From contig DVGA01000036.1 of NCBI GenBank assembly GCA_018712985.1, positions 1 to 32,189 on the forward strand: DNA of 32,189 nucleotides. Direction: 5' to 3'. Numbering within the stretch: the first letter of the stretch is position 1; every line of letters starts with the position of its first letter. The stretch comes from Candidatus Scatomorpha intestinavium. Lineage in GTDB: Bacteria > Bacillota > Clostridia > Oscillospirales > Oscillospiraceae. Both the position numbers and the translations under genes were made by a program. A model generated the notes under the pieces. The model saw only the letters and a program-made list of their open reading frames with translations. It searched no databases and was not told where the DNA came from. Shown here piece by piece: positions 56 through 515 of this stretch.

Positions 56-515
56 TGCAGGGGCGAAAGCCCCTGCATTTCTTTTCTGAGAGATTTCTTT
101 TTGTCTTGTCAAAAAGAAACCCCTCAGACTCCAAAGAAAAGACGCTTTGGTGCTCGTCGGAGGCTAAATCCGGCTATCACCAAACTTTGCGGCACCGAAA
201 AGTTCCAATCCCTAATGGTGAATGAGTTGCCGCATCGCCGACCGTGCGTTTGCTTCGCTTCGCTCGCGGCACTGACGGGCAATCGACGAGGGCGTCCCGA
301 CAACTACCCGTTAGTGCCGCGACCGAAGGGAGCAATGCACGGTTTTGGTGGCTGACGCTATTCACACTACGGGATGACCACGTTGCATATATTTTGTACT
401 TGAGAAAAAACGTGCTCCGCCTCCGGCCTCCGGCCGGCGTTTTTCTTTGGGGCGCCACTCCCGTTTCTTTGGGCAAGACCAAAGAAATGGGGTGGCAAAA
501 GGTTTCGCCCCTGCA
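56..515. repeat. ~460-bp MITE-like imperfect palindromic element with 13-bp perfect terminal inverted repeats
   Basis: TGCAGGGGCGAAA at 56-68 and TTTCGCCCCTGCA at 503-515; inner arms 93-120 vs 463-488 and 131-145 vs 436-450 are inverted copies; central inverted repeat accgtgc(241-247)/gcacggt(337-343); no transposase ORF. Confidence 0.7.

Follow-up and report, generated by a model that had tools for sequence, protein, structure and literature searches.

What is the giant palindrome that lies directly behind the PBP gene of Candidatus Scatomorpha intestinavium, and how did it come to be there? The window, by which we mean the whole 32,189-nt stretch of contig DVGA01000036.1 analysed here, carries this imperfect palindrome at positions 56–515, and both folding and repeat analysis show it to be real. 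As RNA, the segment has a minimum free energy of −225.3 kcal/mol against −151 (sd 7) for shuffled sequences (z −10.3), and folding it as DNA on the other strand gives z −10.5. An exact outer inverted repeat of 14 bp joins 55–68 to 503–516, and inside it lie inverted repeats at 85–103/110–128 (89% complementary), 131–140/441–450 (100%), 255–288/298–331 (79%) and 460–472/479–491 (92%), with the apex of the palindrome at about 289–297. A preliminary description of this DNA had proposed a giant palindrome with the same coordinates, an apex near 288 and exact 13-bp inverted ends; all of this holds, the ends being one base pair longer. It had also placed the element 1 nt from the PBP stop codon and denied it a gene of its own. 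Indeed, the PBP open reading frame ends one base off the element, and the reading frames that overlap 56–515 do so purely mechanically, with no gene called inside by a gene model. At gathering thresholds Rfam returns no match for the element, a tRNA being the sole match in the window. The features of the locus are as follows.

18–48, no strand assigned: intrinsic-terminator-like hairpin of the flanking gene(s), outside the element.
56–77, plus: accessory hairpin hpB, TGCAGGGGC-GAAA-GCCCCTGCA followed by TTTCTTTT; terminator-like.
83–499, plus: core repeat, read as a head-to-head inverted dimer with left arm 83–288 and right arm 289–499.
85–128, minus in outward reading: left terminal hairpin, TCTGAG..TTTCTTTTTG-loop-CAAAAAGAAA..CTCAGA.
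131–145, plus: left half of the closing stem, CCAAAGAAAAGACGC.
255–331, plus: long apical hairpin, in which 255–288 pairs with 298–331.
414–437, plus: variant of the two-hairpin module linker, GCTCCGCCTCC, with hairpin CCGGCC-TCC-GGCCGG.
436–450, plus: right half of the closing stem, GGCGTTTTTCTTTGG.
454–496, plus: right terminal hairpin, GCCACTCCCG-TTTCTTTGG-loop-CCAAAGAAA-TGGGGTGGC.
503–515, plus: half of an hpB hairpin, TTTCGCCCCTGCA; the right terminal inverted repeat (TIR) of the preliminary description.
517–1800, minus: PBP, a host gene whose 3′ end adjoins the element; the name is that of the preliminary description.

Alignment of copies reveals that the conserved core, about 83–499, is narrower than the palindrome. 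It is bounded by the hairpins at 85–128 and 454–496 and closed by the stem 131–145/436–450, while further small hairpins lie outside it in the same order in many copies. The cores of ten copies each fold with z between −7 and −15, with similar stability on both strands. Judged from its sequence, the element consists of two ~200-bp monomers joined head to head in inverted orientation. Within one copy the two arms, as inverted homologues, are 51% identical, whereas between copies left arms are 87% and right arms 77% identical to their counterparts, and the dimer was therefore amplified as a unit. The outer right arm is still left-arm-like in copies c12 and c13; in most other copies part of it has been swapped for a two-hairpin module, SL1-GCTATGCNTCC-SL2, a variant of which displaces part of the ancestral right arm here at 414–437. 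The same module occupies the apex of several copies and also positions outside the core. It is found without the 460-bp core as well, and recurs in the intergenic regions of L201–L219 (for example L215:9016-9112 and L206:9479-9570), where SL2 keeps its C-GCA-G loop and varies its stem in matched pairs (CCACAC/GTGTGG, CCAGGC/GCCTGG, CCAAGC/GCTTGG, CCGGAC/GTCCGG).

Both ends of the element share a common grammar that reads, from the centre outward, TTTCTTTGG-NGN-variable stem-TTTCTTT-loop-AAAGAAA-stem′. Across 129 distinct instances from several genera, counted as bacterial and including a few archaeal loci, the eight end-stem positions are paired in 879 of 1032 cells, compared with a mean of 506 (maximum 550) after shuffling, and a G·T pair adjoins TTTCTTT in 81 of the 129. 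That the stems keep pairing through two-sided changes, as the preliminary description had it, is thus upheld; the selection on structure that it read into them is possible but unproven. Compensating changes alone do not prove selection, because quasipalindrome correction of mutations, which is hairpin-templated and proceeds by template switching, could likewise keep the arms paired.

The element is far from confined to this locus. Its own genome (2.06 Mb in 117 contigs) holds 67 matches that resolve into 40 distinct loci on 32 contigs. Across long matches these share ~70–92% identity with the window copy (8–30% divergence), and several of the loci sit at contig ends, as is expected where repeats break an assembly. 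The pattern CTTTGG-N9-15-TTTCTTT-N4-20-AAAGAAA occurs 45 times in this genome and not once when read backwards. To look for empty sites, we inspected the sequence behind three genes that neighbour copies (valS, PBP and gltX) at their 3′ flanks in congeners. The element is present in none of 11 valS loci and in none of 12 PBP loci, one of which offers only 89 bp of flank and another a partial gene match, and gltX orthologues are without it among the matches listed. In the PBP genes of genomes G002 and G009 a short terminator-like hairpin directly follows the stop codon; here, 460 bp of element separate the stop codon from the hairpin at 18–48, which is also terminator-like. The dispersed, multicopy nature and the empty sites that the preliminary description had pointed to are both confirmed.

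Beyond this species, the pattern is found in 8 of 61 sampled genomes of the family, spread over several genera, and in none of 290 other genomes drawn class-wide; read backwards, it is absent from the positive genomes. Every positive genome has its own subfamily. Within the genus, two-ended copies measure ~410–432 bp (one 550), keeping their length and ends while the middle diverges. Genome G090 contains 26 ends; most are identical letter for letter at separate sites, a sign of recent spread in that genome. Two exact element patterns have no match in IMG/VR, and the literature that we searched contains no named family with the element's motif. Given about 40 loci, empty orthologous sites and this patchy distribution, the element is a dispersed repeat, mobile now or formerly.

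Where such a repeat begins and ends is less simply answered. The preliminary description took the 13-bp inverted repeats as the element's termini, and this did not survive comparison of copies: the left repeat is the first 13 bases of the complete hairpin hpB, which is halved on the right here, and where the right end of other copies can be read, it mostly has a complete hairpin, either hpB or another such as ACAAGGGC..GCCCTTGT. The repeat thus belongs to an accessory hairpin, of which it forms one arm, and with other copies ending differently it is no family-wide transposon terminus. Many copies continue outward in a recurrent order, hpB, then ATAAGGGC..GCCCTTAT, then the two-hairpin module, which leaves the true outer boundary undefined. 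No target duplication is visible at the 56/515 boundaries, which need not be the true outer boundary, nor does an autonomous, transposase-bearing or any other gene-bearing longer version lie between two ends, all pairs of which are 300–700 bp apart in the DNA examined. Of the MITE-like label given earlier, dispersal, copy number, empty sites and lack of a gene stand; the shared TIR falls away, and neither a target duplication at these boundaries nor a transposase version in this DNA was seen. Genomes G064 and G093 (L320–L335), which represent further genera of this family, also have arrays of small GC hairpins beside their TTTCTTT ends, and one of these hairpins, GCAGGGGCGAAAGCCCCGC, closely matches the accessory hairpin.

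The literature links REPINs to RAYT enzymes, whose Y1 domain was included in the search for a mobiliser. None of the six element-rich genomes (the own genome, G009, G060, G064, G090 and G093) has this domain of RAYT and TnpA (PF01797), with positive controls detected, and Y1/RAYT is rejected as the mobiliser. No reverse transcriptase (PF00078) occurs in the own genome, G009 or G093, and it is rejected as a common mobiliser because not all element-rich genomes have it. The IS110 domain (PF01548) is matched once in the own genome and not at all in the complete genome of Oscillospiraceae bacterium CE91-St43 (G060), and the examined DNA around four IS110 matches contains no element motifs; IS110 is rejected on both counts. 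The element is non-autonomous as far as is visible, and since a REPIN-like layout has spread without a detectable RAYT, another mobiliser must exist.

Orientation in CE91-St43 bears on how such a mobiliser might act. This genome has 27 ends, mostly belonging to one-ended elements; for these relatives, homology to the window element outside the end motif was judged by eye. The nine ends within 0–1.12 Mb all point forward, and of the 18 further on, 14 point in reverse, so that 23 of 27 fit a single direction of replication (p 3e-4). Three of the four exceptions cluster within 120 kb, and local GC skew is consistent with this direction for 19 of the 23 ends sampled. Relative to tandem flanking genes, 7 ends are co-oriented and 7 opposed. 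The bias is therefore to replication, not to transcription. Elements that enter the lagging-strand template are oriented by replication (PMC6006769), and the bias in CE91-St43 hints at insertion as single-stranded DNA. The own genome, with weak skew and draft contigs, gives no replication-orientation signal. Another long palindromic repeat, GGCTTCCCCTGGGGGAAGCTG...CTTCCCCCGAGGGGAAGGCTAA, lies upstream of many one-ended copies in CE91-St43 (L173–L199).

Placement relative to genes is biased too. Genes were called by our own simple caller in 378 kb of own-genome stretches selected for containing copies. Of the 15 copies whose neighbours could be read on both sides, 11 have convergent genes around them, an arrangement found in 22 of 155 other intergenic regions (Fisher p 2.5e-6), and 9 of 10 one-sided copies face the 3′ end of a gene. 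REPs are placed similarly (PMC3733652). The accessory hairpins, hpB and others, resemble intrinsic terminators in having a GC-rich hairpin and a T tract, often on both strands, and some flanking genes keep their own terminators outside the element. At PBP, the element is probably transcribed, lying as it does between stop codon and terminator-like hairpin, and termination is plausibly a side effect or an exapted role. Hairpin modules also adjoin stop codons: one directly follows that of valS (L218:3538), and in gltX (L215:8419), which exceeds its orthologues by a few codons, one apparently even supplies the stop codon.

We favour, with a probability of roughly 0.65, a non-autonomous mobile repeat, an inverted dimer with hairpin ends in the layout of a REPIN, that is moved by something other than Y1/RAYT. 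Direct observations cover its dispersal and the empty orthologous sites, the subfamilies particular to each genome, its structure and its position behind gene ends. The ends are hairpins with conserved sequence and a freely varying, still paired stem, which an enzyme supplied in trans would recognise, most likely in single-stranded form where the replication fork exposes them, and it would then insert copies. Such copies would persist chiefly in the 3′ untranslated stretches that separate convergent genes, and there their GC-rich hairpins could also stop transcription from both sides or cap mRNAs at the 3′ end. Against this explanation, none of the three enzyme domains sought is common to all the element-rich genomes, and the own genome shows no replication bias; copies there are 8–30% diverged, and activity may be over. 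The replication bias comes from one genome with one-ended relatives, and outer boundaries and target duplications are undefined. A more specific proposal, which we regard as tentative and rather doubtful, is that hairpin-ended repeats of Oscillospiraceae-type bacteria are copied into the lagging-strand template by a non-Y1 single-strand DNA enzyme, REPIN-like with an undescribed engine.

Several of these observations could be read otherwise. A classical MITE, that is, an internally deleted DNA transposon with TIRs and target duplications that is moved by a DDE transposase, would also be non-coding, rich in inverted repeats, multicopy, 340–620 bp long and missing from orthologous sites, and one copy in G090 has very long, near-perfect inverted ends. 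We nevertheless consider it unlikely: the 13-bp ends are not common termini and show no target duplication, no gene-bearing version lies between two ends in the DNA examined, and end hairpins with variable paired stems are atypical of DDE ends. REPIN-like in its doublet layout, intergenic placement and compensatory stems (PMC3116915, PMC3733652), the element could be a true REPIN whose RAYT was lost or missed. That reading is very unlikely and largely refuted, in that Y1 is absent from six element-rich genomes, among them a complete one and G090 with its near-identical copies, and the conserved tag is TTTCTTTGG, not GTAG.

Two alternatives remain. As a functional element of the host, a bidirectional terminator or stabiliser of mRNA 3′ ends under selection, it would owe its copy number to usefulness, not to selfish spread, and its position between convergent genes, its terminator-like hairpins, often on both strands, and its probable transcription at PBP would all fit. 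Yet orthologues in congeners lack it and make do with short ordinary terminators, 460 bp is far above what a terminator needs, its distribution is patchy (8/61), and the same placement results when purifying selection removes insertions from genes and promoters; we judge this reading quite improbable. A family of structured non-coding RNA genes would explain the very stable fold and conserved architecture. It is the most remote of the readings, with no Rfam match at gathering thresholds, no promoter-like site in the three regions scanned and similar stability on both strands. Moreover, the A·C mismatches of the left hairpin become G·T on the minus strand only, and hence no single transcript suits both ends.

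The preferred reading, a mobile repeat with a non-Y1 mobiliser, can also be placed among known systems. With REPIN/REP elements and their RAYTs (GTAG superfamily; PMC3116915, PMC3733652) the element shares two inverted, imperfectly palindromic ends forming one doublet, intergenic positions behind genes and between convergent genes (11/15), compensatory changes, genome-specific subfamilies and amplification within a genome. It differs in its length (~420 bp vs ~100), in its outer-strand tag, conserved in aligned instances as TTTCTTTGG vs GTAG (or CGTC), in a spacer that forms an inverted dimer of its own and contains nested hairpin modules, and in the absence of RAYT from the six element-rich genomes. 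Like prokaryotic MITEs, including the clustered pneumococcal BOX/RUP/SPRITE (PMC10969869), it is short, non-coding and inverted-repeat, within the 50–500 bp range, with elements nested in one another and terminator-like hairpins; unlike them, it has no shared exact TIR, no target duplication seen and no parental transposase found. Single-strand transposons of the IS200/IS605 type and their non-autonomous derivatives (PMC6006769) likewise have subterminal end hairpins and a replication orientation bias, the latter seen here only in the related CE91-St43, but the six element-rich genomes have no TnpA (Y1) gene. Intrinsic terminators resemble it in the GC-rich hairpin with T-rich tail at gene 3′ ends, whereas the element's hairpins belong to a far larger dispersed repeat. 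As there is no RAYT or GTAG tag and neither a shared TIR nor a target duplication was seen, we set it apart from both REPINs and MITEs as a new form of palindromic mobile repeat, REPIN- or MITE-like in working.

In some gut Clostridia these repeats are so frequent that they fragment draft genomes and place large hairpins behind housekeeping genes; for these two reasons its movement and its effect on mRNA ends are directly testable. The same pattern also matches many DPANN and other archaea (L064, L075, L084, L093, L095, L098, L101, L107, L108, L112, L127 and L129). Several of these matches (e.g. L064, L098, L107) resemble insertions or introns inside tRNA genes, with a hairpin TTTCTTTGGGG..CCTTTCTTTT-loop-AAAAGAAAGG that could reflect either homology or convergence with the bacterial ends.
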